IMG/VR virus record: IMGVR_UViG_3300049053_000107
Coordinates: 1-55,210 of that record
DNA from: a virus
Direction: 5' to 3' (one strand)
DNA: 55,210 nucleotides
The notes beneath the pieces are model-generated. The model saw nothing but the letters and a program-made list of their open reading frames with translations, ran no database searches and was not told the DNA's origin. Both the position numbers and the translations under genes were made by a program. Below, piece after piece: positions 11,957 to 51,619 of the stretch. Within the stretch, counting starts at the first letter, position 1. Each line of letters starts with the position of its first letter.

Positions 11957-14817
11957 TAGCTTAATATTACTTTTTCACCATTAATTAATACCAGGCAATC
12001 ATTTATTTTTAGCCACGGGCAACACTCGCCTATAGGTGTAACAGGATTATCAAATCTTTTCAACAGTTTCATTTCGCATCTTTCTTCTGAAAAATTATAT
12101 GTCAGCTTATAGGGCCATCCTGCTATATATTCACCTTCGGGATTTTTTACTGTTATATAGCCGTAATTTTTAGTTGGTGAGCTTGCACCTCGCATTGCTT
12201 CGTTTATCAACAACACCTGGTCAGGTGAAAGTCTGCATTTTAGATTCATCCATTCAGGCCGATATATGTACCCATCCGTATTCAAATCATCAATTGCTAC
12301 GTGCTGTTTTTCTTCCCATAAATCTTTATTTACATCACCCATTGGGTTTTCTTCTGTGGGTAAAAACTGCGTCGTCAAAGCACCATTTTTATCAACAAAA
12401 GTGTTTTTTACTTCATCGCTTTCGCTCTTAAACGCCCAGCTACCTACCAACCATTTAGCCCAATTAAGAAACATGCGAAGCGGTGATATGCGTAAGTTGT
12501 AAGCCGTCTCGGGCGAAATGAGATTGTCAACAGTCTGAAATGCTTCTGCTCTTTCCGCTCTGAAGTCACTACCATCTCTGCGCAGGGCAACAATAAACGG
12601 TTCTTCATCATTTTCGTAAGAATCCGTAGGTGTGTCAGCGTATTGTTGTCTGCGGCTATCTTCCAAAGAATAACCGCTTGCTATAAAATCACTTTTTGCA
12701 ATGAACTTGTTTTTATGAGACTTAATAGGCGCTAAACGTTCATGTTTCGTGTTGAATTCATCAAGCGTATTATGCCCATCTTCTTTATACTTGTTGTATC
12801 CAATTTCCAGCTCATTGTAAATAAGATCCTTTGCTACTTCCTCTTCATAAGTTTCAATACTTTCTTTGTTATTATAGTTTGGAGAGATTACCAGAATTTC
12901 ATTGTCCTGGTAAAAAAACCCTAGTTTTTCAACCCGTACTTCTTCCCTGAGACCTCTTTGTTCAAAACCAAACCCTATTGAAGCGATTGACTTTGTACTA
13001 TTCAATGCTGTTTTAAGGCTTATGTTTAAAGGTTTTTGATCAGCGTCAAAATTTCTTATGTTGAAACCGTTGGTAATTGCATAAAGCGAAAACTCACCGT
13101 CTTTTGCATTAAGGTTATTCAGTGTAGCCAGTAATTGAGAAGAAAGCCTACCCTGGTTATTTGTAGTGACTTTTAAAAGGTGATTGATCACATCGTGTAA
13201 AAGCCACATCTTAGAAGTGCTTTCAGGAGCCGATTCGAAAGATTCAGCTACGATAGACGTGTTTTCTGCACGTACTCTTGCTTTGTGTTTTCCTTCTATA
13301 GAAGCATCATAAAATGCATAAATGTAAACTTCATCGTCCTTTTTAAGATCCAGTGCAGGTATGCTGTCGTCGATCACTAAAACTTTTGATTGACTGTTAA
13401 TAGAAGCAGTTTGATCATTCCAGTGTCCATTTACCGTAGGGCCTATTTGCTGAGAGTAAAATTCTACCCCGGCTCGTATAACTTTAAAAAATGGTTTTAT
13501 AGTATAGTCGTCACTATCTGCTGTGGTAGTAGCTTTTCTTTGTAAGTCGATATATAGTGTACTTTTTATTTCAGAAAAAGTAACAACGCCGTCAAAATCC
13601 AGCTTCAGATTATACAGCGAATTGGCAACCGGGTTCAGATCAGATGCGTTCAATCCATATCCGAAATACGTACTTATCTCAGAAAGAACGGGATTGCTTG
13701 TGTCAGGTAAAAAATAAATATCGCCGTTATCTACGTAGGAAATCCAATCTGTTTGCGTACTGTTATCAATACTTAAACTTAAACGGCTTATAAACTTTTT
13801 GGAATGTAGTATAACATCGAAAGGCTGCGGTGAAATAATTGGCTCGCCATCCAAAGTTTCTGTAGCCTTCATTGACACCTTAGTTTCAAAACGACTTTGC
13901 AACAAATCGCTAAAATCTTTACGGTCTACGGATAAAGCCACACGCCCGAAAAGATTTTTACGGGTATTGAAATTCAGCTTTCCTTCAAACAATACAAATT
14001 CACTGCTGCCGTAAGTGAAACCGTATTTAAGTATTACTTCTGCGTCATTGCCGTAAAGTGAATACTGTTCTTCAATCAAGTCTTTTCCTGCATCGCAATC
14101 AAATTCTAATTGCACTTCGCCGTCTGAGTATTGGTGGTTCCAGCCATGCCAATCTTTATCCCGTTCACCGACTATACCAACAGCATCCCATTTTATTGGC
14201 TCTCTCACTAAATGCTCTGTATCTTCAATAACTAATTTGAAGAAATAGCAGATTCTTTCTTTCCAGGGAAAGCCTCCGGAACTGGTTGGTGCTATGGTTT
14301 CATTTGTTCTATTTACTGAAACGACTTCGCTATGCGTACAGCCAACATTGTCTTTTACATAGAGTATGTACACTCCTTTTACAAGTCCGACGAATTCATT
14401 TTGCAATTGCCAGGTTACGTTATCGAGAGAATATTTTATTGGACTGTTAGAAGATGAAGCGGTTACTTTAATGCTGCCATCGTAATTACCAATGTAGCTT
14501 TCATCTTCTACAGCAACTTCACTTACTGCAAGATCGCAACTAGGGGCCGGGATAAAACCGCATTCGGCAACATTATAATCTATGGTTACGTAAGTGAATG
14601 GTGTAATAAGGCTTGCGTATATAAAATGCTTATTACCCTCAAAACAAAGGCTTGTTATTTCTTCACCAGAAGGCATACCCAATTGCTCTTCTGTAACCTC
14701 GTCTAATTCGGGATCAGGTCCAGAAACATTCACATAGTTATCCCTTGTCTCTGGGTCATAGAAACAATTGTAGGCTGTGCTACCGATAACAAACGATCTT
14801 ATGAATACTTCAGCCAT
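11956..14817 (-). CDS. Large tail tip/hub protein with a SprB-like repeat
   Basis: 953 aa, between the tape measure and fibre genes, the position of tail-tip/hub proteins in siphophages. Residues about 100-165 match the SprB-type repeat of Bacteroidota surface adhesins (GSIKVTASSSNSPIKYSLD then GVYILYVKDNVGCTH). Downstream is a baseplate-like region (WKERICYFFKLVIEDTEH; VEKLGFFYQDNEILVIS), and the C-terminus has Cys pairs (GECCPWLKINDC). Start overlaps the tape measure stop (TAATG). Expected to close the tail and link it to the fibres. Confidence 0.6.
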   Translation of the reverse strand: MAEVFIRSFVIGSTAYNCFYDPETRDNYVNVSGPDPELDEVTEEQLGMPSGEEITSLCFEGNKHFIYASLITPFTYVTIDYNVAECGFIPAPSCDLAVSEVAVEDESYIGNYDGSIKVTASSSNSPIKYSLDNVTWQLQNEFVGLVKGVYILYVKDNVGCTHSEVVSVNRTNETIAPTSSGGFPWKERICYFFKLVIEDTEHLVREPIKWDAVGIVGERDKDWHGWNHQYSDGEVQLEFDCDAGKDLIEEQYSLYGNDAEVILKYGFTYGSSEFVLFEGKLNFNTRKNLFGRVALSVDRKDFSDLLQSRFETKVSMKATETLDGEPIISPQPFDVILHSKKFISRLSLSIDNSTQTDWISYVDNGDIYFLPDTSNPVLSEISTYFGYGLNASDLNPVANSLYNLKLDFDGVVTFSEIKSTLYIDLQRKATTTADSDDYTIKPFFKVIRAGVEFYSQQIGPTVNGHWNDQTASINSQSKVLVIDDSIPALDLKKDDEVYIYAFYDASIEGKHKARVRAENTSIVAESFESAPESTSKMWLLHDVINHLLKVTTNNQGRLSSQLLATLNNLNAKDGEFSLYAITNGFNIRNFDADQKPLNISLKTALNSTKSIASIGFGFEQRGLREEVRVEKLGFFYQDNEILVISPNYNNKESIETYEEEVAKDLIYNELEIGYNKYKEDGHNTLDEFNTKHERLAPIKSHKNKFIAKSDFIASGYSLEDSRRQQYADTPTDSYENDEEPFIVALRRDGSDFRAERAEAFQTVDNLISPETAYNLRISPLRMFLNWAKWLVGSWAFKSESDEVKNTFVDKNGALTTQFLPTEENPMGDVNKDLWEEKQHVAIDDLNTDGYIYRPEWMNLKCRLSPDQVLLINEAMRGASSPTKNYGYITVKNPEGEYIAGWPYKLTYNFSEERCEMKLLKRFDNPVTPIGECCPWLKINDCLVLINGEKVILS

Positions 14818-17800
14818 TAATTAAATGAGTGTCTTTTATTTAAATAGGTGTTTAGCCCATTTTTATTTTCTTGTGATCTGCGATAGCCTTTTTCATCCCA
14901 ACTATTCCGTTCTACTGTTATGTTGCCAACCGTATCTTTCATTATACCGCGCATTTCATCTTTAGAAATGCCCTTGCGGTCAAAAGCTCTTACCAAATTG
15001 TTCACTGCTTCTTTTTGTTTTCCATCACTGATTTGCCTGGTGAGCGCTGAAGTTGCTTTATCAGCAATGTTGTTCTCGGCCCTTAAAGCATGGTCAATGA
15101 TGCGCTTACTTTCTTCATGCGTCCAAACACGTTCACCACCTTTCATATCCATAATCTGAGGCTCACGGGCTACATACATTCTACCGTTACGCTCAATTAA
15201 CTCAAAACCTGCTTCACCTACTAAAGCTTTACCTACAGGTGCAGACTTAGTACCTTTTGCAAACTTTGGTAAAGGACGACTAGCTACTAAAGCTGCCTGG
15301 AATGCACCTTGTGCCAGTGCATAAGCAGACCATGGCAAACCAAATGTCAATGGACTGGCTGCAACTGCTTTTATCACACCAATTGCTGTATTAATAGCTA
15401 TCTCAAATAAGGCCATTGTCTTTTCACGTTTGGCCTGTTTTGTTTTTTCAGCATTGATGCGTTTTTGATATTCTTTTTCGATTTTCTCACGAGCTGCAGC
15501 GTTGCTGCCTGCTATTTCCAATTCTTTATTACGGGCATTTTCTAATTGGCGAATCCGGTTATCACTGGCTATTTGCTGATTGTCGGCGAGAGTAGAAAAT
15601 AATTGGTCGCTTGCCTGTTGTGCATAATCAGCGATAAGATCAATTGTTTCTCTGCGGTGACGTGCAGTAAGTAAAGCCTGTTCATGTTCTATTTCCTGAA
15701 TGGCTTCAGTATTGCCTACATACAGGCGTTTAATTTTTTCCAGGTATTCCATTTCCTCACGATAACTAACATCTCTGCGATTACGCTCAATTTCCATTTT
15801 ACGGGCTTCAGCGTCTACGGTTGCTTCTACCACTCTGTCAGCTGCACCGCCTGCGTCTACCACACCGCGATCAGATATTTTAGTACTACGAGAAGAGAGT
15901 TTATCTACCGGCCCTCTTTCCCTGTTTTTTTCAAGGAATTTGGATATTTCAACTTCAGCTTCAATAATTTCTTTTTTCAAATTGGTAATACGTTCCTGGT
16001 CTGCATGCTTGCCAAGCTCCAATTCTTTTTCAATAGATTTTTCTAAGTAGGTAACAGTCAGCCAATACTTCTGTTCCTGAAACTCTTTTTCAGTAATTAT
16101 TTTATCAACACTTTTATCTTCAGCTAGTTTTATATCAAGTTCTGCTTCCGCTTTTAATAAATCTTGTGCTTTGCGGTTTGCGGCTATGCGTTCACGAAGT
16201 TTTTCTTCAGCGCTGTCCTTACTGTCTTTTTTATTGGCTTCACCTAAAGCCTTCATTTCTGCATTATGCTTTTGTGCATTATGCGCTTCCTCGTTATCTA
16301 AGACAAGGTGACGGCCTAAGTATTGTTTATAGATCCGTAATGCTTCAGCGTAGTCTTTTTCATCCTGCACATTTTTTGCACCGGTACTATTATCTGCGAT
16401 ATTTCTAGCAACAGTAACTGCAGCCCGTTTATCTGTTAAAGTTTCCCTACGTTGAGAACTGGTTTGAGATTGGAAATTATTAAAATCCTGTTCCTTCAAT
16501 TGAGCCTGTACGTTAGCCCTAGTATTACTACCATTGAATATTCCGATAAAACTTTTCCATGAAGGTGAATTGGTAAATACATTTAAGCTATCAAAGAAAG
16601 AAGCCATACCTCTTTTTACCTCAGTCCAAAAACTTACCATACCGCTTTTCTGTCCAAAACTTTGAAGGAAACGATTAAATGAGTTGGTTAACCTGTTCGT
16701 CTCATTGGTTAATTGCTGCGCATTCTCAATGGCTGATTTGCTGTATGTCTTATTTAAGATATCTGCAACTTTTGGTAAAATGTCAGAAGCAAGTACTTCA
16801 CCACTACGAAGCATTTTATCGAGTTTAGCAGTACTAACACCAGCAGCTTGCGCAAATATGTTGAACGCACCAGGTAAATGCTCACCTAATTGCTGTCTCA
16901 GTTCTTCAGCGCTTACCTTGCCTTTGGAAAGCATTTGCTGAATAGCACGTAAAGAGCTTTCAACTTGCACATTACTTAACTTCAGTGCGGTGCCTGCCTG
17001 TACAACTGCTTCAAATATTTTACGGGTTTGTGCACCTTCCAATGAAGTGCCTTTAGATGCGGCCGTAAGTGATTTGTAGCTAATAGCCAAATTGTTCAAA
17101 TCCTGACCGTACTTGTTTGCAATGCCTCTTAGAAACTCAATAGTTTCAGCAAGCTCCTGTTCGGTATCTACAACAGCACGTAAACCGGCTTCCATGTTCT
17201 GAAACTCAATATTGGCATTAATCACTTTATTAAATCCTGCAAGCAGTGTAGTAACAATTGCCAAAGGCCCGGCAATACCAAGTATCTGTGCACCTAATCC
17301 CGAAAAAGCCGATCTGTAATTACCTACACTCCTACCATAAGCCCCCATTGACGAATCAGCACGTTTCAATGCTTTATCCAGCGTTTCAATTTTATGCTGT
17401 AAGGCAACAGCTTCTTTATTTTGACGATTAATTGCACCAGTTGTAGCATTGAAAGCACCGGGCATAGCTTGCAAACGATTCTTAAGCTGTGTAAGCTCTA
17501 AAGACATTTGCTTATAAGAACCGCTTGTAGCATCCAGGTTCTTTTTAGTAACCCTTACCACTTCAGAAAAGCGGTGAACGTTGGGGATTACTTCGGCAAG
17601 GCGCTTATTAATCCGGTCAAGTTCCTGCCTGTAATTTGCATTTGACTTATCCAGATTATCATACTCTTTTTTAAGATTTTTTAGTTCCTGCTCCAACGCT
17701 TTTTGAGAAGCAGTAGTAGCATCCGTCACAACCCGTAAACCTGTCTCTGTGTCTCTTAATTTATTTTTACGGTCAATAATTTCATCTACGGCTCTTTTCA

Positions 17801-18023
17801 TTGCCTGAAGGACCACCGTAGCATTTACGTTACCTACATTAAACTTATTGAGAATTTCAACCGTTTTAAGAAGATCACTGTTGTATTCTTGTTGCCTGCG
17901 AGAGAGTTCTTTAAGCACCCCGCCAACGGTGGCAGCAAACTCTTTGGTTTGCTTCCTTGCCTCTCCCATGTCTCTAAAGAAACTAGGAAAATCGAATAAC
18001 TCTGTATGCTGAACTGCTGACAA
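14817..18023 (-). CDS. Tail tape measure protein
   Basis: 1068 aa, the second largest reading frame group of the window. Residues ~270-430 contain a tape-measure domain (IEFQNMEAGLRAVVDTEQEL, SNVQVESSLRAIQQMLSKGK, LRQQLGEHLPGAFNIFAQAA). Long coiled coils lie on both sides, and a hydrophobic stretch near 890-930 (AINTAIGVIKAVAASPLTFG) resembles the membrane-active segment of such proteins. The length implies a tail of roughly 150 nm (inference from about 1.5 angstrom per residue). The start chosen is TTG (TTG TCA GCA) because an in-frame stop lies just upstream; ATG at residue 19 is the alternative. Confidence 0.85.
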   Translation of the reverse strand: MSAVQHTELFDFPSFFRDMGEARKQTKEFAATVGGVLKELSRRQQEYNSDLLKTVEILNKFNVGNVNATVVLQAMKRAVDEIIDRKNKLRDTETGLRVVTDATTASQKALEQELKNLKKEYDNLDKSNANYRQELDRINKRLAEVIPNVHRFSEVVRVTKKNLDATSGSYKQMSLELTQLKNRLQAMPGAFNATTGAINRQNKEAVALQHKIETLDKALKRADSSMGAYGRSVGNYRSAFSGLGAQILGIAGPLAIVTTLLAGFNKVINANIEFQNMEAGLRAVVDTEQELAETIEFLRGIANKYGQDLNNLAISYKSLTAASKGTSLEGAQTRKIFEAVVQAGTALKLSNVQVESSLRAIQQMLSKGKVSAEELRQQLGEHLPGAFNIFAQAAGVSTAKLDKMLRSGEVLASDILPKVADILNKTYSKSAIENAQQLTNETNRLTNSFNRFLQSFGQKSGMVSFWTEVKRGMASFFDSLNVFTNSPSWKSFIGIFNGSNTRANVQAQLKEQDFNNFQSQTSSQRRETLTDKRAAVTVARNIADNSTGAKNVQDEKDYAEALRIYKQYLGRHLVLDNEEAHNAQKHNAEMKALGEANKKDSKDSAEEKLRERIAANRKAQDLLKAEAELDIKLAEDKSVDKIITEKEFQEQKYWLTVTYLEKSIEKELELGKHADQERITNLKKEIIEAEVEISKFLEKNRERGPVDKLSSRSTKISDRGVVDAGGAADRVVEATVDAEARKMEIERNRRDVSYREEMEYLEKIKRLYVGNTEAIQEIEHEQALLTARHRRETIDLIADYAQQASDQLFSTLADNQQIASDNRIRQLENARNKELEIAGSNAAAREKIEKEYQKRINAEKTKQAKREKTMALFEIAINTAIGVIKAVAASPLTFGLPWSAYALAQGAFQAALVASRPLPKFAKGTKSAPVGKALVGEAGFELIERNGRMYVAREPQIMDMKGGERVWTHEESKRIIDHALRAENNIADKATSALTRQISDGKQKEAVNNLVRAFDRKGISKDEMRGIMKDTVGNITVERNSWDEKGYRRSQENKNGLNTYLNKRHSFN

Positions 18024-42983: not shown

Positions 42984-43415
42984 TTAAAACGGTAAATCCT
43001 CAACGGCTTCCGCTTCCTGTTTTATTTCTACCCACTTTGCCGATTTGCTACGCCAGCAATAGAAGAAATACTTCTTTATGTTTGGCAATTTCTTTATACA
43101 GGCTATGTTGTCAATGTGATAGCCAATGTCCTCATAACGTCGATCAATGTTATAGCCTGTCAGCGTTTTGCCTTTAAGTCCGATATAGTTCACTCGCACA
43201 CACCATTTTCTAAAATCTTCCAGTGTGATAGTGAACGGTATTCCATCCCTGGCAGCACGTCCTTTTACATTGTTGAATGCATAACGTACCGGGTCTGCCA
43301 ACCTGCTTTTTCTACTCCTGCAACCACCACACATTTTACCTTGGCATTCATTGGTGCAATAAAGCACCTGACAAATTCCCTTGGTAGTATGTTTTTTAAA
43401 TTGCAGGGGTTTCAT
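42984..43415 (-). CDS. HNH-like protein with N-terminal zinc-binding Cys
   Basis: 143 aa. N-terminal YCTNECQGKMCGGCRSRK gives a Cys cluster; YAFNNVKGRAARDGIPFTIT and YNIDRRYEDIGYHIDNIACI match the core of small phage HNH-type proteins (N/D-R...GYHxDN). The catalytic His of an HNH site is not clear, so it may be a non-nuclease relative. Confidence 0.55.
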   Translation of the reverse strand: MKPLQFKKHTTKGICQVLYCTNECQGKMCGGCRSRKSRLADPVRYAFNNVKGRAARDGIPFTITLEDFRKWCVRVNYIGLKGKTLTGYNIDRRYEDIGYHIDNIACIKKLPNIKKYFFYCWRSKSAKWVEIKQEAEAVEDLPF

Positions 43416-43860
43416 AGTGTTTCCTTCGTGGATCCAGAATAAACATTGCTACGTGTCTACCAGTGCCAGGGCCTTGCATATTATCTTCAGTCGAATGCCA
43501 GCGAACATTTTTTAAGTTCCTTACTTCAGCGCCTAATTCATTTAGCAGCATCAACACCCATTTGTCAATTGGATAAACCAACACAACCAGTTTTCCTTTT
43601 TTATATTCTTCAATACATTTTCTAGCCCATGCCGTTGGTCCTTTCTTTTTTTTGTCGATAGCACATACATAAGAACCAAAAGGAGGATTGACATAATTCC
43701 TTTGACCCCACTCAGTTCTTAAACCGTCAAATCCTTCTGGCTTAGGGTAAGGACATGGATCAAAGTCAAATTGAAATTCATCCTGCAATTGTTTCATCAG
43801 GTCGGGTGGCGTTAACCAGTAATGTTTTCCATCTGCTTTATTTCCGTTTTCGAATGCCAT
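43396..43860 (-). CDS. DNA N6-adenine methyltransferase (phage Dam-like)
   Basis: 154 aa. Motif IV NPPFG (58-62) within RNYVNPPFGSYV, preceded by FDFDPCPYPKP and followed by KLVVLVYPIDKWVLMLLNEL. This matches the phage Dam-like family. Expected to methylate adenine, perhaps protecting phage DNA from restriction or marking it. Overlaps the HNH-like gene by 20 nt and follows the polymerase gene directly. Confidence 0.8.
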   Translation of the reverse strand: MAFENGNKADGKHYWLTPPDLMKQLQDEFQFDFDPCPYPKPEGFDGLRTEWGQRNYVNPPFGSYVCAIDKKKKGPTAWARKCIEEYKKGKLVVLVYPIDKWVLMLLNELGAEVRNLKNVRWHSTEDNMQGPGTGRHVAMFILDPRRKHYETPAI

Positions 43861-45819
43861 TTAATCTTTTTTATAGTACATAGTCTCAAATCCATCAGCA
43901 GCCAAAGGCAAACCCTTAGCCCAGCTAATTGGCATACTCATAATTTGGTTTACTTCATCCAGACTACCAACGCCAAGCGGCATTTCCATAACTATTTCAT
44001 CGTGTATATGGGCAATGATCTTATAGCCTTTATCGTGCAGACGGAGCATAGCAGTTGCCAGAACATCACGGGCCACAGCCTGCACAATGTTTTCCACCAA
44101 TTTCCCACCGTATGTATTCTGCTTACCCCACTGCTTTGTTGTCTGGTTCATGCCTTCATAGATCAACGTATATCCGTTAAAGGCGTTTGGCCGGGTAGAA
44201 GGTTTTAAATAACAAAGTCGTCTGCCACTTGGCAATTGAATAAAGAAGATGCCTTTTTCTTTCAGCATCTTCACACCATGGTTTAAAACAATTGTTTGGC
44301 CTGTCTGTACACAGGTGTTTGCTGCTTCACCTACCTGGTACCAATAGCTGCAAATCTTCCGGTTAGCATTACGCCACATCTTAACCAGCTTCGGTAATTC
44401 CTCTTCCACAAGGCCCATGCGTAAAGCGCCCATTGCTATTAGCGCATTAGGTCCACCCTGGTAGCCCAATGCCAGTTCTGCGATCTTTGCCTTATGCCGC
44501 CATTCACTTGTTTTAGTAACTTTCTCAATGGGTATTTTAAACATGTGCGCTGCAGTAGCTTCATAAATTTTACCGTGAGTATTAAATACGTCCAGCTTCC
44601 AGCGTTCACCACTGAGCCATGCAATTATTCTTGCTTCAATAGCTGACAGGTCACTTATGATTAATCTATTTCCAGGCTCTGGAATAAAAGCAGTGCGTAT
44701 AAGCTGGCTTAAGGTATCAGGCACATTACCGTAAAGCATTTGTAGTAATTCCAGGTCATTACGCTTTACTACTTCCCTTGCCAGGTCCAAATCTTTCATT
44801 TCGTTACGTGGAAGGTTTTGCATTTGCACAATGCGACCAGCAAACCTTCCTGTTCTATTGGCACCGTAGTATTGAAACAATCCGCGAATACGGTTGTCGC
44901 TGCATTTGCTTTTAACCATGGCCGCATACTTCTTTACAGAAGTCTTTGACATTTCCTGCCGTATGTTTAGGACACGCTTAATAGTATCAGCACCTATATA
45001 GCCGTCTACCTTAGTAAGCAGTTCCGGTATATCTGTTTTTTTCAGAGTATCAATATCATCAAGCGGCATTTCCTTGGTTAACCATTCTTTCAATTGAGAC
45101 ACACTGTTAGGATTGCTAAGGCCAGTGAGCTTAATTGCTTCAGTGGTTAGTTTCTCTTTATAGATGCCTTCCATGCTGATTGCATTTTTTACCAATTCAG
45201 GATCTACCAACACGCCGGTATCGTTTATTTGCTGATCCAGGTGCCACAGTCTTTTTTCAACAGGAGGTATTTCGAAAAAGGAAATTTTGTTTTTAATTGC
45301 TTGTTCGGCTACTACGTCCTGCGCACAATAGTCTTTGAATTGCTGCCACTTTACCGGGTCATGTTGCGGCAGGTTACGTGTTCTGCCACCATTAGCTTTT
45401 GTAGGCTTGCAGGGCATCGAGAAATAACGGATAAGTGGTTTACCATTTCCTTTTTGTTCGGTTAAGTTTAGCACTCTGGCAACTGTTTCAAGATTGAGAG
45501 GCAAACCAAGCATTGAGGCATGTACGGCTGTACACTGCCATTGGTCAACGGGTAATTTTAATTTGAAATATTTATTAAGGGCCGTCCTTTCGAAGTTGGC
45601 ATTAAAAGCACATTTTATTATTGAGGGGTTAGTAAGTGCATTCTCAATTTCTAAAGGCAAGTGTTCGCCTTGTGCCATGTCTACTACTTCAACCGGACGG
45701 CCATCAAGAGAGTAGCCAAATAGCAATATTTCAAAATCAGGAGCTTCCACGTATTTGTATACACCCGTGTTTTTTATTTCGTTGCTGCTATAGGTTTCTA
45801 TGTCTATGGCTAATTGCAT
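43861..45819 (-). CDS. Family A DNA polymerase (with 3'-5' exonuclease)
   Basis: 652 aa from the ATG at 45819 (MQLAIDIETYSSN); an upstream start would overlap the reverse transcriptase gene by 57 nt. Exonuclease motif DIETYS (D6/E8), polymerase motif A RLIISDLSAIEARI (D390), motif B KIAELALGYQGG, and motif C HIHDEIVME (D607). The replicative polymerase of the phage. Its start overlaps the stop of the DGR reverse transcriptase (TAATG), so the two are likely translated from one mRNA. Confidence 0.9.
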   Translation of the reverse strand: MQLAIDIETYSSNEIKNTGVYKYVEAPDFEILLFGYSLDGRPVEVVDMAQGEHLPLEIENALTNPSIIKCAFNANFERTALNKYFKLKLPVDQWQCTAVHASMLGLPLNLETVARVLNLTEQKGNGKPLIRYFSMPCKPTKANGGRTRNLPQHDPVKWQQFKDYCAQDVVAEQAIKNKISFFEIPPVEKRLWHLDQQINDTGVLVDPELVKNAISMEGIYKEKLTTEAIKLTGLSNPNSVSQLKEWLTKEMPLDDIDTLKKTDIPELLTKVDGYIGADTIKRVLNIRQEMSKTSVKKYAAMVKSKCSDNRIRGLFQYYGANRTGRFAGRIVQMQNLPRNEMKDLDLAREVVKRNDLELLQMLYGNVPDTLSQLIRTAFIPEPGNRLIISDLSAIEARIIAWLSGERWKLDVFNTHGKIYEATAAHMFKIPIEKVTKTSEWRHKAKIAELALGYQGGPNALIAMGALRMGLVEEELPKLVKMWRNANRKICSYWYQVGEAANTCVQTGQTIVLNHGVKMLKEKGIFFIQLPSGRRLCYLKPSTRPNAFNGYTLIYEGMNQTTKQWGKQNTYGGKLVENIVQAVARDVLATAMLRLHDKGYKIIAHIHDEIVMEMPLGVGSLDEVNQIMSMPISWAKGLPLAADGFETMYYKKD

Positions 45820-46769
45820 TAGGCTAATAACTTTTTTAAAAGGTTTTTGCTGTTGCAGTGTTTCGCCCAACCCCAATAAGATGCAATGGAAGAAAGGTTT
45901 TTCCTTTTGGCTACCATACGGGCAAAATTTTGTTTGATACTTTTTCTTAAAAGAATGTGAGTGTGATAAAAACGGTAACCTACAAAATCCAGACTACGTG
46001 CGTCAACAGGAAATACCTGGTAATTACCTTTTACCGATAGGTTTAATTTCTCGACTAAATAGCTTTTGAGCTCTTTAAATAATTCGTGTAAATACTGCTT
46101 ATCATCTGAAAGGATAACCAGATCATCTGCATAGCGGAAATAGTACTTTACGCCTTTGGTTTCTTTCAGCCAGTGGTCAAAATAGGTGAGATAGAAATTT
46201 GCTAAATACTGAGATAGATAATTACCTATTGGTAACCCTGGTGCGCTGTCAATGATTTCGTCTAACAACCAAAGCAGGTCCTGATCTTTTATTTTCCTTC
46301 GTAATAACTGTTTTAAGATGGCATGATCTACCGATGGATAAAACTTCTTAATATCCAATTTCAAACAATACTTAGTACTTGCTTCATCACGAAGTGCTTT
46401 TTTTACTTTATTCGCAGCGTTATGAATACCTCTTCCTTTAATGCAACTGAAAGTATTAGCAATAAAACACGAAACAAACAACGGTTCTAAAACATTCATT
46501 ATAGCATGATGCGTAATCCTGTCAGGGTAATAAGGTAATTTATAAACATCTCTTTCTTTTGGTTCAAATACTTTGAAAATTTTATACGGAGAGGTTTTAT
46601 AAGTTTTATTTATTAGGGATTGATGAAGCTTAGTAATGTTGTTCTCCCGGTCAATGTCGTGAGCTTTAACACTGTACTGATTTTGTTTGCCTTTACGGGC
46701 AATAGTGTCGGCAAGCATAAGATTTTCTACGCTGCAAATTTGTTCATATAAATTACCTAATCGTTTCAT
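45819..46769 (-). CDS. DGR reverse transcriptase
   Basis: 316 aa. Motif A LKLDIKKFYPSV (D139), DGR-type motif 4 GLPIGNYLSQ (178-187; Q in place of the usual group II QGxxxSP), catalytic YADD (213-216), and a C-terminal SIASYWGWAKHCNSKNLLKK as in other DGR enzymes. It copies the TR RNA with adenine-specific errors into VR sequences of the target genes. Upstream on the same strand: the TR (97 nt before its start) and two target genes. No avd-like accessory gene is seen in the cassette. Confidence 0.9.
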   Translation of the reverse strand: MKRLGNLYEQICSVENLMLADTIARKGKQNQYSVKAHDIDRENNITKLHQSLINKTYKTSPYKIFKVFEPKERDVYKLPYYPDRITHHAIMNVLEPLFVSCFIANTFSCIKGRGIHNAANKVKKALRDEASTKYCLKLDIKKFYPSVDHAILKQLLRRKIKDQDLLWLLDEIIDSAPGLPIGNYLSQYLANFYLTYFDHWLKETKGVKYYFRYADDLVILSDDKQYLHELFKELKSYLVEKLNLSVKGNYQVFPVDARSLDFVGYRFYHTHILLRKSIKQNFARMVAKRKNLSSIASYWGWAKHCNSKNLLKKLLA

Positions 46770-46830
46770 CCTTTGCTTAATTGAATCACCTTCACTTTCG
46801 TTACCAGTGCTTCTTTTTTAAAATCATTTT

Positions 46831-46844
46831 TTGCCAAGAGGCAA
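46831..46844. other. Hairpin in the TR-RT spacer
   Basis: TTGCC-AAGA-GGCAA, perfect 5-bp stem with a 4-nt loop, 22 nt after the TR end in the RNA sense. In BPP-1 the spacer RNA between TR and RT is needed for cDNA synthesis; this hairpin is a candidate element with that function. Confidence 0.35.
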
Positions 46845-46865
46845 GGCTTGTACTTAAATTATTTA

Positions 46866-46928
46866 GCAATTGCGGGAGCTAACATTCGAATTCGTGTAGT
46901 TGTCATTGACGTTGTTCAGCGAAAAGCC
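46866..46928 (-). repeat. DGR template repeat (TR)
   Basis: 63-nt template, coding sense minus strand; translated it would read GFSLNNVNDNYTNSNVSSRNC, full of AAC/AAT/TAC codons typical of TRs. Aligned without gaps to both VRs. The coding strand has 18 adenines; 13 differ in VR1, 14 in VR2, and none of the other 45 positions differs. Confidence 0.95.
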
Positions 46929-46980
46929 AGAAGCAAAACAGCACAAAGCCAAAATGCAACACTCCAAGTAGTACACAACC

Positions 46981-47352
46981 CTATTTATCAAACACCATGT
47001 AGTCTTTATACAGATCAATAAACTGTTTTACTGTGTACTCCGCTAAGTCTCTACTTTTGAAGCAAAGGCGGGAGCCAACACCCGAAGCCGCGTAGTAGTC
47101 ATAGACGCCGTCCAGCGAAAAGCCAGAGGGGTTACTTTTTGTTTTCTCCATATCAAACCAGGGATAGTACTTGTATTCATCATTGTTGTTCCAATCGGGT
47201 TTCCAACCATCGTTTATAACCTGAATAATTATAAACAGTTTTGCAAGTGCGATTAACGCTTTATTATGTGGATTATCAGGCAATGCAGGCACAGCTTTTT
47301 TAGGATCAATACCTAGCTTCTTACAAGCAGCTTCAAAAGTTTTTACTTTCAT
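46981..47352 (-). CDS. DGR target protein 1 (hypervariable)
   Basis: 123 aa. Conserved WKPDWNNNDEYKYYPWFDME segment, then the VR-coded part SLDGVYDYYAASGVGSRLC (about residues 77-97), then an invariant tail FKSRDLAEYTVKQFIDLYKD. The variable region thus lies about 25 residues before the C-terminus, not at the end, and the tail does not look like a C-type lectin fold. No signal peptide. Paralogue of the gene upstream. Function unknown; the variable face presumably binds changing ligands. Confidence 0.85.
   Translation of the reverse strand: MKVKTFEAACKKLGIDPKKAVPALPDNPHNKALIALAKLFIIIQVINDGWKPDWNNNDEYKYYPWFDMEKTKSNPSGFSLDGVYDYYAASGVGSRLCFKSRDLAEYTVKQFIDLYKDYMVFDK
47062..47124 (-). repeat. DGR variable repeat 1 (VR1)
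   Basis: In target gene 1. Differs from the TR only where the TR coding strand has A (13 of 18 such positions). The three differences nearest the coding-strand 3' end (CGCCTTTGC, GGCTCC instead of AGCTCC) are shared with VR2 and probably mark the IMH rather than mutated bases. Confidence 0.95.
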
Positions 47353-47361
47353 TTTTAATAT

Positions 47362-47817
47362 TTATAAAGTGAAAAATTGTTTGTATAATTCAATAAATTG
47401 TTTAGCGGCATATTCTGCTAATTCCCTTGATTTGAAGCAAAGGCGGGAGCCAACACTCGAACCCGTGCAGGCGCCAGTGACGCTGAGCAGCGAAAAGCCA
47501 TTAGATTTATCCATGTAAAACCATGGGTAATACTTATATTCATTGCCATTATTCCAATTTGGTTTCCAACCTTCGTTTAAAGCAAGTATGATAATTTTCA
47601 GTTTTTTATAGGCTTCATCGTCGGGATCGTCCGTATTCGAAGCATGGAAACGCACACCTAACACTTCGCAAGCATCTTCAAATGTTTTTACACGATCAGT
47701 AATTTTTTGAGAAAAAAATTCTTTACCAAACGTATCTACTAACATTGTTTTAAATTCTGCTGAAGCTGAAGGGTAAAGTTTTCTAGCGTTTTCTTTATTT
47801 ATTTGTAAGGTTTGCAT
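47362..47817 (-). CDS. DGR target protein 2 (hypervariable)
   Basis: 151 aa. Extra N-terminal region (INKENARKLYPSASAEFKTM, then FEDACEVLGVRF) like that of other small Bacteroidota phage proteins, then WKPNWNNGNEYKYYPWFYMD, VR-coded SLLSVTGACTGSSVGSRLC, and the tail FKSRELAEYAAKQFIELYKQ. It starts right after a Rho-independent terminator, and its stop is 9 nt before target 1, so the two are co-transcribed. Not exported by sequence. Function unknown. Confidence 0.85.
   Translation of the reverse strand: MQTLQINKENARKLYPSASAEFKTMLVDTFGKEFFSQKITDRVKTFEDACEVLGVRFHASNTDDPDDEAYKKLKIIILALNEGWKPNWNNGNEYKYYPWFYMDKSNGFSLLSVTGACTGSSVGSRLCFKSRELAEYAAKQFIELYKQFFTL
47437..47499 (-). repeat. DGR variable repeat 2 (VR2)
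   Basis: In target gene 2. 14 of 18 TR adenine positions differ, no other position differs. Many of its changes are not shared with VR1, so the two VRs have diversified separately. Confidence 0.95.
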
Positions 47818-47837: not shown

Positions 47838-47867
47838 TAAAAAGGACCTGCCTGGAAAAGCAGGTCC
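47838..47867 (-). terminator. Rho-independent terminator before the DGR cassette
   Basis: GGACCTGC (47844-47851) / GCAGGTCC (47860-47867), loop CTGGAAAA; on the minus strand the stem is followed by TTTTTAAAC. It separates the ssDNA-binding protein gene from the DGR target genes, only 21 nt before the target 2 start. Confidence 0.8.
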
Positions 47868-47894: not shown

Positions 47895-48437
47895 TTATTT
47901 CATAAAATCCTCATCCTCTACTTCCACTTCTGCAAAATCATCTTCTGCACTGCTTCTACCAGAAAGCGGAGTATCATCTTTTGCTTTCATCACATGGTTA
48001 AGTGAAAAGCCTACGCCCTTGCTGCCTTCTTTGTCATAAGGGAACGCAGTGATTGATACAAAAGCCCAGCAACCGCTATACACATCTTCCTTGTTCAAAA
48101 TCTTGTCGCGTTTGCCGTCTACAATACCAGGCTGCATTTTGGAAGAGGCATTAAGGAACATGCTTTTTAAATAAGCCTCGTCGTCCTTCTCTGCGTCACC
48201 GTCACGAAGCGGTTCTTTCAGCTTTTTAGGGATAACACCGCCCCACTTCTTTTTGCCTTCTTCCTTAGCGGCAAGTACCGCAGCTTCTACTTTGGCAATT
48301 GTCGCTTTGTCTTTCTTTGGGATGATAATAGAGGCAGCATACTTACCGTCCTTATTAGGTTCCCAAATCCATGCGTAACTAAGCCGCACCGGGCCTATTA
48401 CGATTTTTGTACTGTTTTGCTGTTTTTCAGTTGACAT
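47895..48437 (-). CDS. DUF2815 ssDNA-binding protein
   Basis: 180 aa. VRLSYAWIWEPNKDGKYAAS at the N-terminus, SIIIPKKDK and the acidic tail (EDDFAEVEVEDEDFMK) match DUF2815, a phage ssDNA-binding/annealing type protein. The acidic C-terminus is typical of SSB-like proteins. It is the last gene of an early transcript, followed by a terminator. Confidence 0.8.
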   Translation of the reverse strand: MSTEKQQNSTKIVIGPVRLSYAWIWEPNKDGKYAASIIIPKKDKATIAKVEAAVLAAKEEGKKKWGGVIPKKLKEPLRDGDAEKDDEAYLKSMFLNASSKMQPGIVDGKRDKILNKEDVYSGCWAFVSITAFPYDKEGSKGVGFSLNHVMKAKDDTPLSGRSSAEDDFAEVEVEDEDFMK

Positions 48438-48569: not shown

Positions 48570-49751
48570 TCAGGCGCTACCTACTTCTATTTGTTCAAAA
48601 TCCTTAATTGCTGCAGCCGTACTATCTAATTCAGGCCGTTTGTCACTTTCAAATATCAGAGTTGGTTTGCCTTCAGGCTTCACTACTAAACCATTCAGCT
48701 TTTCAGTGAACACCGTTTTGCCAATCAGCTTTTCCATGGCGCCAATACCAAGCAACTTTTTTGTATAAATCTGATCCTGCTTAAAGCCTAATTTCTTTAC
48801 GGCAGTAGCTACTTTCTTTTCATCTGCATACACCCGGTTGCTGCGTCCTTCCACCAGCTTAAAGCCGGGCCACTTTTTACCAGTAACAGCCTGCTTCAGT
48901 GCATAATCTTCCACGGCAGTTAACCAGTTCTTTATTACGTCTGCTTTGCCCAATATCTCAGTAATAGTCTCTTCAGAAAGTAAATCGGGTTGTATGCCTG
49001 CAAACTCACTGGCAGCAAGTTCCATGTGCTTTTCACCATTGGCCCTGCAGGTAGCACGGGCACGGCAAAAGCGGCAATGTTCACCAGGAATAAATTCGCC
49101 GTCACCGGCAAATGCTTTTGCAGCAAGCGGTTTTAATTCCTTATCACCCCATTCTTTCAAATAGCCAACAGGTACTTGCCATTCTGTTATATTGTCAATA
49201 CGGGGTTGGTAAATGGTCATGCGCACTTCTTTGATGGAGTACAGAAAGTCGTGAGCTTCCAAAGCACCGAGCGCATACACCATCATTTGCTTATTGTTCT
49301 CAGCACTTACAGGCACACCCTTGCCATACTTCAAATCAGTGATTTCTAAAACACCGTCAGCAATGATCTGGTTGTCTATTGTGCCGAACCCCTCTTCTAT
49401 ATAGCTGCGTAAATCAACTTCTGATTCAAGAAGAATTGTAGCGTCCGAGGTATGCTGTTTTGCTTTTTCGAATCGGTCAATAACAAAAGCAGCATAATCA
49501 GAACAATAGTCAAACATTGCTTCATCATAGAAAACGTTACCGTGTATTTCTCTGAACGCATCGCTAAATTCTTTATCGCTGATCATGTTCAGCTTGTGTG
49601 CAAGCATTATTTCAGCCAGCTTATGTGCCAGTGTGCCTTCCTTTGCCACGTCGCTATCAGTGTCAGGAAACTGCTCTTCCAGTCTTGCGCTTTTAGAGCA
49701 CACAAGCCATCTACTTGCAGATGAAGGGGAAAGAATCGCATGCTTACCCAT
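48570..49751 (-). CDS. DUF2800 (RecB/Cas4-like PD-(D/E)XK nuclease)
   Basis: 393 aa. N-terminal SPSSASRWLVCSKSARLEEQ, EGTLAHKLAE, the nuclease core IIADGVLEITDLKYGKGVPV (D and D-L-K motif) and a C-terminal Cys set HCRFCRARATC suggesting an iron-sulphur cluster as in AddB/Cas4-type nucleases. DUF2800 is typical of phage recombination modules alongside a DUF2815 ssDNA-binding protein. Confidence 0.8.
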   Translation of the reverse strand: MGKHAILSPSSASRWLVCSKSARLEEQFPDTDSDVAKEGTLAHKLAEIMLAHKLNMISDKEFSDAFREIHGNVFYDEAMFDYCSDYAAFVIDRFEKAKQHTSDATILLESEVDLRSYIEEGFGTIDNQIIADGVLEITDLKYGKGVPVSAENNKQMMVYALGALEAHDFLYSIKEVRMTIYQPRIDNITEWQVPVGYLKEWGDKELKPLAAKAFAGDGEFIPGEHCRFCRARATCRANGEKHMELAASEFAGIQPDLLSEETITEILGKADVIKNWLTAVEDYALKQAVTGKKWPGFKLVEGRSNRVYADEKKVATAVKKLGFKQDQIYTKKLLGIGAMEKLIGKTVFTEKLNGLVVKPEGKPTLIFESDKRPELDSTAAAIKDFEQIEVGSA

Positions 49752-50672: not shown

Positions 50673-50888
50673 TTAGTATTTTCTTGAGGCTGATAATTTC
50701 CAAACTTTTAAACAGCTATCTGACAATGCTGTAAACTTCTTTTTCCTTTCCCACTTCTGTACATTTTCGGGTGTTGCTTTTGGGCATATTGCACAACCAA
50801 AAACAGCAGTAAGCACCAGTGTCCAGATTATGATACTGATAATTGTAACTACAATCCAGGTAAGGCCTTTTACTGCTGCTGGTTTCAT
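50673..50888 (-). CDS. Small membrane protein
   Basis: 71 aa from the ATG at 50888 (MKPAAVKGLTWIVVTIIS), which overlaps the preceding stop (TAATG). One transmembrane helix (about 9-32) followed by CAICPK and a basic tail. Unknown function. Confidence 0.5.
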   Translation of the reverse strand: MKPAAVKGLTWIVVTIISIIIWTLVLTAVFGCAICPKATPENVQKWERKKKFTALSDSCLKVWKLSASRKY

Positions 50889-51619
50889 TACGCTGCTTTT
50901 AATTTTTTGTGCGCTATATAATCGCTCCATTGCTTAGCTATTGCATACCCAATCCCTTCATATGTTTTGCTCCTTTTCTTACCTCTGTCGTCGCAAGGGC
51001 TCTCTCTGTTTTGGCCGCTATCGGTTTGGTTAGCCCATCTTTTTTTGCCGTTAACAATTCTTGGTTCTATTAAAAAGGTTGGTTCTAACAGCGGTAGGTT
51101 TTGAAGCCACAAACAAGTAGACTTGCTCGCATCATGACCAAATTGATAGGGCTGAATAATTTGCGACGGCTGAACACCGATAGTTCTTTTCGGAAACACC
51201 TCCCATCTTTCGGATCCTATGCCGCCAACATATCTAAAAATCCTTGTGCTAATGCAACCAATAGGGTTTTCAATGGCTATAAAATCTATCGGTGCATTCA
51301 TAAGGCGTTTTACAAATTCAAGTGCTTTTTCTCTCGCTTGTCGCCGCGCTTCACCTACCAATGTTGACGACTTTACTTTTTGATGATAAGGCCCATCACT
51401 ATACGCCCATTCAGCAGATACAGTGAGATAAGTACAAGGCGGATGAGCAATCATTAAATCCCATCCTTCATTTAAATGGTTCAACACATCGTCTTTTATA
51501 TGCCATTCGGGATGTCCGCCACTGCAATCAAGTACATCACATGAATAGGCCTCGTGTCCTAACCCACGAAAAGCTTTACACACGACCTGGCTTTCTTCAC
51601 ATGCGATAAGAATTTTCAT
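50888..51619 (-). CDS. DNA cytosine methyltransferase-like protein
   Basis: 243 aa. N-terminal KILIACEESQVVCKAFRGLG (motif I-like), GHEAYSCDVLDCSGG (D of motif II), MIAHPPCTYL with the catalytic-type PPC (60-62) and IAIENPIG with ENP (117-119). This is the compact phage protein related to C5 cytosine methyltransferases. It lacks an obvious target-recognition domain, so activity is unproven. Confidence 0.7.
   Translation of the reverse strand: MKILIACEESQVVCKAFRGLGHEAYSCDVLDCSGGHPEWHIKDDVLNHLNEGWDLMIAHPPCTYLTVSAEWAYSDGPYHQKVKSSTLVGEARRQAREKALEFVKRLMNAPIDFIAIENPIGCISTRIFRYVGGIGSERWEVFPKRTIGVQPSQIIQPYQFGHDASKSTCLWLQNLPLLEPTFLIEPRIVNGKKRWANQTDSGQNRESPCDDRGKKRSKTYEGIGYAIAKQWSDYIAHKKLKAA

Follow-up and report, generated by a model that had tools for sequence, protein, structure and literature searches.

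The IMG/VR phage record examined here, a window of 55,210 bases (55 kb) analysed over its whole length, carries a diversity-generating retroelement (DGR) on its minus strand. The RT motif, the TR/VR pairs, a strict adenine specificity and the target-TR-RT gene order are all present, and the cassette is therefore confirmed as a DGR, in agreement with an earlier note that had described an adenine-mutagenesis DGR with two diversified copies. We assign a probability of about 0.8 to the joint reading that it is an intact DGR of a temperate Bacteroidota phage, that it lacks Avd, that its template lies in a clamped RNA and that its targets are soluble, non-tail proteins. Two target genes lie upstream, target 2 (47362..47817, 151 aa) and target 1 (46981..47352, 123 aa), followed by the TR (46866..46928, 63 nt) and the reverse transcriptase (45819..46769, 316 aa), all on the minus strand. 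DGR cassettes of this kind are already known; little has been described of such a target type, of the template RNA fold or of the likely partner protein in relatives.

Alignment of the TR with VR1 (47062..47124, minus strand, residues 77-97 of target 1) and VR2 (47437..47499, minus strand, residues 107-127 of target 2) was gap-free and co-linear over 63 nt, exactly at the coordinates reported earlier. A recount reproduced the earlier figures: 13 of the 18 TR adenines are changed in VR1 and 14 in VR2, with 0/45 changes at C, G or T in either copy. The hypergeometric chance of all differences falling on A is 8e-10 for VR1 (13 differences) and 8e-11 for VR2 (14 differences). The number of mutable adenines, previously put at 15-18, is 15. 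The alternative that all 18 are mutable was rejected: adenines 49, 58 and 59 (46880, 46871 and 46870) are undiversified and correspond to fixed IMH differences, relatives' VRs carrying G, C and T at these positions in 117/118, 13/13 and 17/17 cases, respectively. Within the mutable set, 10 adenines are changed in VR1 and 11 in VR2. An IMH/IMH* zone is present, with IMH*-like differences at the 3' end of the TR and positions -15, -8, -6, -5 and -4 fixed in VRs across relatives. No further VR was found in the whole 55,210 bases, tail genes included.

The two targets are tandem paralogues (57% identical), as would be the case if diverged paralogues subject to gene conversion, or an assembly artefact, had produced the repeats. 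That explanation has to accommodate the lack of any difference at 45 non-A sites between freely diverging flanks, a directional A-only pattern, a third copy lying outside any gene and a layout repeated in well over 100 independent contigs; we give it practically no weight, and the base-specific pattern already refutes a non-DGR origin.

The reverse transcriptase contains the DGR motif GLPIGNYLSQ together with YADD, as noted earlier and matching the [ILV]GxxxSQ and YxDD pattern, and matches both RVT_1 (3e-19) and the reverse transcriptase family phrog_1423 (4e-124). Identity to the BPP-1 RT, whose GIPIGSLTSQ aligns with GLPIGNYLSQ, is 34%; the closest counterparts of the present RT among annotated phages are crAss-like RTs (50-59% identical). 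A defence RT was rejected: NCBIfam DRT/retron models matched only below their cut-offs, the PADLOC DRT/retron matches come without cut-offs, and the TR/VR pattern settles the assignment as DGR.

The Avd accessory gene is common, though not universal, in DGRs. No PF22296 or TIGR02436 match was detected in the window, nor any PF22296 match in 27 relatives, with BPP-1 detected as a positive control. The earlier description of the element as complete thus holds for the RT, the TR and both targets, all intact, and does not extend to an avd gene, which many DGRs normally do without, about one in four according to PMC7290462. Judged from its genes, the architecture fits the Avd-less 'target-TR-RT' lineage, which PMC7290462 cites as lineage 3 of Wu et al. 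A small OB-like gene lies directly after the RT in 62/80 relatives, sometimes fused to it, and is absent here; this RT-coupled gene likely encodes a partner protein in the relatives and is a candidate for the missing accessory factor.

Other Bacteroidota phages repeatedly carry this two-target-TR-RT cassette, and cultured carriers include Pedobacter arcticus, Niastella caeni and Flavobacterium sp. SLB02. The pattern named beforehand as refuting adenine mutagenesis, with C, G and T differing as often as A, was sought in these related genomes and was not seen: in the VR cores of 126 TR/VR pairs, 1211/2011 adenines differed versus 13/2525 C/G/T positions, and an independent set of bacterial genomes gave 849/1217 versus 120/3226. 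Near-identical contigs differed in their VRs at 9-21 template adenines and 0-3 other VR positions, versus 1-14 differences in the remaining kilobases; one such pair had 12 differences at template adenines, none at the other VR bases and a single one across the rest of 4.6 kb. The contig comparisons, which cover relatives, indicate that VR turnover is recent in near-identical relatives and that relatives without Avd are active.

The cassette is probably working. A decayed element, whose pattern would be a remnant of earlier activity now lost in this phage, would fit the absence of both Avd and the small gene found after the RT in most relatives. It fits poorly with an intact RT, intact targets and TR RNA, with VRs free of any non-A difference, as recent copying predicts, and with the activity of relatives devoid of avd, and we regard it as improbable.

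The TR is enclosed by a strongly covarying stem, P1, which adjoins an Rfam RT-17 RNA (RF03020; 46769..46848, minus strand). All stems lie on the minus strand and were assigned by alignment and pairing, with additional evidence for both P1 arms from the independent set. The 5' arm of P1 (46970..46980; GGTT, a bulged G, TGTACT) starts directly past the stop codon of target 1 and pairs with the 3' arm (46845..46854; AGTACA, AGCC); these are followed by hairpin P2 (46832..46843; TGCC...GGCA) and by P3 and P4 (46783..46813), two stems whose internal loop, UGGUA/GAA, is conserved. Across P1/P2/P3/P4, 253 cells were changed on both sides, versus 72 after shuffling and 21-47 after sliding. In the majority of 52 independent loci from genomes, P1 pairs at 8/8 positions with unrelated arm sequences. 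The covariance-model score for RT-17 was 41.6 bits versus a gathering score of 40.4, with relatives just below this cut-off. The Rfam model begins 3' of the TR and P1 lies outside it.

Both targets match phrog_11581 (unknown function), a family that adjoins the RT in 72/80 viral loci, usually as tandem copies. In nearly all DGRs the VR lies within a C-type-lectin domain at the C-terminal end of the protein, though this does not define them; here, 26 residues follow VR1 in target 1 and 24 follow VR2 in target 2, and no C-type-lectin match was found for the targets. Likewise, no Pfam, NCBIfam or PADLOC family was recognised and neither a sequence nor a fold match was found in the PDB, while the BFVD matches were exclusively uncharacterised phage proteins. 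An AF2 model (pLDDT 94) predicts a beta-hairpin within a helical body. The proteins are small, without fibre, signal or membrane parts. A hydropathy scan of 151 relatives revealed no TM-like stretch; target 1 reaches 1.61 on this crude scan, right at the TM-like threshold. These features, together with the gene location described below, suggest that the targets are soluble proteins that probably act outside the virion rather than as tail fibres.

The targets sit beside replication genes, all encoded on the minus strand. A family A DNA polymerase gene (43861..45876, start uncertain; ORF and domain match) comes directly after the RT, and on the other side of the cassette lie genes for an Enc34/gp2.5-type ssDNA-binding protein (47895..48437; domain and PHROG match) and a DUF2800/PD-(D/E)XK protein of the replication module (48570..49751; domain match). 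The tail tape-measure gene, identified by PHROG match, maps to 14817..18023 on the same strand, so the tail module is located away from the cassette, at a distance of ~29 kb. Tape-measure genes of relatives are mostly 14-30 kb from the cassette, and in about 20 Mu-like relatives the MuB, transposase and DUF3164 genes share the strand of the cassette, with head genes antisense. The recurring feature of the lineage is this early-region setting and not specific neighbours: adjacency to SSB, DUF2800 and PolA was rejected as a lineage rule, the same neighbours being found in only 4/80 viral loci. Ahead of target 2, separating it from the gene for the ssDNA-binding protein, a terminator-like hairpin with a T run was called from its pattern (47844..47867, minus strand). 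Transcription of the cassette may therefore start at a separate promoter, possibly a late one. For the targets, being encoded far from the tail genes is in itself compatible with presence in the virion.

The crAss-like DGRs (crAssphage LMMB and Buchavirus cr52_1, cr56_1 and cr60_1) share the target-TR-RT order and, by eye, the P1/P2 RNA motif with this cassette, and also lack avd (PMC7290462). Unlike here, the target next to their RT belongs to the tail and has its VR at the C-terminus. In cr52_1 and cr56_1, the TR that serves the tail protein also feeds a homologue of the present targets, which is encoded in the early region, remote from the cassette; with phage Versailles, this makes three phages in which one template diversifies both. 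The early homologue of cr60_1 showed no A-only match to its own TR; not all close crAss phages, therefore, co-diversify the two proteins.

These phages bear on whether the same DGR might act on virion proteins, with the targets being minor tail-tip or decoration adhesins encoded off the tail module and serving to switch host range in the manner of BPP-1. Most viral DGR targets described in the literature belong to the tail (PMC8144416), the TR of the crAss phages and Versailles also feeds a tail protein, and PHROG-based annotation named the early copy of Versailles 'tail protein'. Nevertheless, the cassette occupies early or replication regions in unrelated phage types, the tail genes of 21 long relatives and of the window yielded no TR-derived repeat, and the proteins combine small size and a lack of fibre, signal or membrane parts with a helical fold absent from the PDB. 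We consider virion targets unlikely.

Under the preferred reading of a clamped template RNA serving soluble targets, the RNA that separates target 1 from the RT would fold, as covariation suggests, with P1 closing around the TR and P2-P3-P4 (RT-17) just 3' of it. By analogy, P1 may mark the template ends and place the 3' spacer as a platform for RT binding and priming, a job performed in BPP-1 by Avd plus the spacer. The sequence pattern shows that adenines are where the RT errs in copying the TR. It also shows that the cDNA replaces the VR and leaves unmutated the IMH zone at the VR 3' end, for which the mechanism is taken over from BPP-1. The predicted products are two tandem soluble proteins of roughly 125-150 aa, with about 7e8 possible sequences each, presumably made from the replication region and not from the tail module. 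They are most likely diversified ligand binders in or on the infected or lysogenic cell, whose ligand could be, for instance, a variable surface or defence molecule of the host.

More tentatively, we hypothesize a clade of Bacteroidota phage DGRs in which Avd is replaced by the clamped template RNA (P1 and RT-17), mostly together with a small OB-like protein that is either coupled to the RT or fused with it, and which diversifies small non-virion proteins in the infected cell, some phages co-diversifying a tail protein from the same template. If so, one repertoire would serve receptor binding as well as a function inside the cell or at its surface, such as superinfection exclusion or receptor blocking. 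Phage DGRs are usually regarded as devices for mutating tail fibres; a widespread lineage with early-gene targets, and one template for a tail and an early protein, would point to a second phage use of targeted hypermutation. The TR-enclosing stem offers a concrete, mutable RNA element for template-end setting and priming in an Avd-less DGR, and the small RT-coupled gene could be of use for rebuilding compact DGRs as protein-diversification tools.

The Bordetella phage BPP-1 DGR has in common with this cassette the RT GxxxSQ motif, TR-VR adenine mutagenesis and a TR-RT spacer. It differs in having Avd and a single tail-fibre target (Mtd) with a C-terminal VR, whereas here Avd is absent and two small, putatively non-tail proteins are targeted. 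The two-target arrangement is ordinary, since multi-target cassettes are common, several VRs being found in 28.6% of DGRs (PMC6642488). Phage tentaclin DGRs similarly serve two targets from one TR, but the topologies of those two proteins differ and both are C-type lectins, in contrast to the tandem paralogues without a recognisable lectin fold described here (PMC10743442). The Bacuni phages of Bacteroides uniformis likewise have two targets, one of them distant, and carry DUF2800/DUF2815 genes; unlike the present cassette, they possess Avd and DUF1566 C-lectin targets (PMC8143477).

The cassette lies on the minus strand and comprises, in transcription order, target 2 (47817-47362), target 1 (47352-46981), the template repeat (TR, 46928-46866) and the reverse transcriptase (RT) gene (46769-45819). 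The earlier note had claimed a gap-free match between the TR and the variable repeats of targets 1 and 2 (VR1 and VR2), with variation at adenines only. The match was borne out over 63 nt; 13/18 template adenines differed in VR1 and 14/18 in VR2, as compared to 0/45 other bases, and the probability of all differences falling on A by chance was <1e-9 for each VR. The note was right to identify a diversity-generating retroelement (DGR), and we put the probability that the cassette is a real DGR at about 0.98. Since the record, an IMG/VR virus contig of 55,210 bases, contains terminase, tape measure and integrase genes, the source phage is tailed and probably temperate. RT relatives in named genomes were nearly all found in Bacteroidota (Niastella, Pedobacter, Chitinophagaceae, Flavobacterium). 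Having two targets makes the DGR ordinary as such, several VRs being present in 28.6% of DGRs (PMC6642488); what sets it apart is the class of its targets, its clamped template RNA and a linked small gene.

Comparison with 80 related loci from IMG/VR indicated that nearly all share a layout of 1-3 VRs in tandem targets followed by the TR and the RT. Across the VR cores of 126 TR/VR pairs, A differed at 1211/2011 positions and C/G/T at 13/2525, a count biased towards A-specificity by the A-only scan that supplied the pairs. A count with less bias, made on an independent genome set by scoring the second VR across the TR extent fixed by the first, gave 849/1217 for A and 120/3226 for C/G/T. Within the 3'-terminal 18 nt of the VR, TR adenines at five positions were replaced by one constant non-A base with at most one exception each (-15, G in 117/118; -8, G in 104/104; -6, C in 13/13; -5, T in 17/17; -4, T in 87/87). 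These fixed 3' differences are the expected difference between IMH and IMH*, the zones of fixed, unmutated differences at the 3' ends of VR and TR. TR positions 49, 58 and 59 of the window fall in this zone, which therefore leaves 15 mutable adenines, mostly within AAY codons and allowing ~7e8 protein variants per VR.

The earlier note had also asked whether VR substitutions concentrate at template A, and in pairs of near-identical relatives they do. The pair of loci L036/L043 differed at 12 VR positions with template A, 0 other VR positions and 1 position elsewhere in 4,590 nt; the corresponding numbers were 11, 0 and 14 in 11,122 nt for L056/L060, 9, 0 and 12 in 9,724 nt for L063/L064, and 21, 2 and 2 in 2,722 nt for L039/L043. 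No TR changes were found in these four pairs. Judged by these pairs, the DGR lineage is active.

The 3' flank of the TR matched the Rfam family RT-17 above threshold. An alignment of 56 TR regions revealed a further stem, P1 (46845-46980), which has its arms on both sides of the TR and lies outside the RT-17 model. In the window, GGTT-G-TGTACT pairs with AGTACA-AGCC, and the 5' arm begins right after the target 1 stop codon. For stems P1-P4 together, 95% of cells paired and 19/24 pairs showed both-sided changes; such changes occurred in 253 cells, versus 72 in shuffles and 21-47 when partners were slid. P1 is strongly covarying. In the independent genome set, P1 was mostly paired at 8/8 positions across 52 loci, as compared to a cross-locus mean of 4.7/8, and several failures apparently stem from anchors misplaced by the script. 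The arms were unrelated between genome loci (e.g. TTTGTCTT/AAGACAAA and TGTGATGC/GCATCACA), and a P1-type motif was seen by eye at the crAss loci. In the DGR of Bordetella phage BPP-1, the spacer is reported to recruit the RT together with the accessory protein Avd and to prime cDNA synthesis, which is stopped by an avd 3' motif (PMC12875486). By analogy, we infer P1 to set the template ends in this cassette.

No Avd is present. A gene of ~100 aa (phrog_19665) starts ~2 nt from the RT end in 62/80 viral loci (e.g. L016:6950-7249). It was found in 67/79 genome loci, immediately behind the RT in about 49 of them and farther downstream in gut Bacteroidales. In Mangrovibacterium marinum (L214:10001-11263) and at loci L177 and L211, it forms a fusion with the C-terminus of the RT. 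Its structural model (pLDDT 88) has the OB-fold order b-b-b-a-b-b; PDB matches were weak, with several OB proteins among them. The protein is a candidate non-Avd DGR accessory factor. The small gene is absent from the window. The loci in which an Enc34-type ssDNA-binding gene is near the cassette (L025, L063, L064, L066 and the window) are all without the OB-like gene; replacement or shared ancestry is possible.

Targets 1 and 2 both belong to phrog_11581 (function not assigned). Neither contained a Pfam or NCBIfam domain or a clear membrane stretch, target 1 being borderline (1.61 on a crude scale). The VR encodes residues 77-97 of target 1, followed by 26 residues, and 107-127 of target 2, followed by 24 (median 26 in 137 relatives), unlike the VR of DGR targets, which is reported to be near-universally C-terminal (PMC8144416). 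A confident AlphaFold2 target model (pLDDT 94) was mostly helical, with a single beta-hairpin (95-101, 109-116) holding part of the variable residues and then a C-terminal helix pair. The model had no match among PDB structures, and its good BFVD matches were uncharacterised phage proteins, a number of which were crAss-like; the targets may or may not have a lectin fold. Two relatives, G019 (41559) and G028 (104), carry an extra target copy ~5-7 kb off the cassette, with TR differences at A only (0 other).

The window cassette has the gene for an Enc34/gp2.5-type ssDNA-binding protein on one side and that for DNA polymerase A on the other; DUF2800 is nearby, and the tape measure is 29 kb away. 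Exactly these neighbours occur in only 4/80 viral loci; at the others the cassette is still within early regions. DnaG primase is close to it in 8 loci, and in ~20 Mu-like phages it shares its strand with the transposition genes and DUF3164, the head genes being antisense. Recognisable tape-measure genes of relatives lie 14-28 kb from the cassette, except in one record (~4 kb, opposite strand), and no TR-derived repeat was found in a tail gene among 21 long relatives. On balance we lean towards a non-virion role of the targets, which is the weakest link of the whole reading. A terminator-like hairpin (47844-47867) separates target 2 from the ssDNA-binding gene, so the cassette may be transcribed as a separate unit. 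Two DNA methyltransferase-like genes (43396-43860, phrog_111; 50888-51619, phrog_757) flank the replication module.

The nearest RTs among annotated phages were crAss-like (50-59% identical). There, the RT adjoins a tail protein whose VR is C-terminal. These genomes also encode homologues of the window targets in their early region. One TR fitted both VRs in cr52_1 (L083/L082; tail 16/20 A and 0/45 other, early 14/20 and 0/45), in cr56_1 (L088/L086; early 18/24 and 0/43, tail 15/24 and 2/43) and, over 107 nt, in Bacteroides phage Versailles (L089/L084; tail 11/22 and 0/85, early 14/22 and 0/85). In the cr52_1 control, a shuffled locus reached 24/45 non-A matches versus 45/45 at the real site. 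In Versailles, the early copy is flanked by genes for a NinB-type recombination mediator and a replisome organizer. The small early protein is therefore itself a DGR target, served in trans, in phages whose tail protein is diversified as well. The early homologue in cr60_1 (L085) gave no A-only match with the phage's own TR and is perhaps an escaped or frozen copy. No published description of such co-diversification was found in the literature searched, the coverage of which was partial. The cr52_1 tail protein gp18 (L083:4495-5736), annotated as one CDS, contains two in-frame stops under table 11, but its frame is open throughout when TAG is decoded as an amino acid; reassignment of the stop codon is likely.
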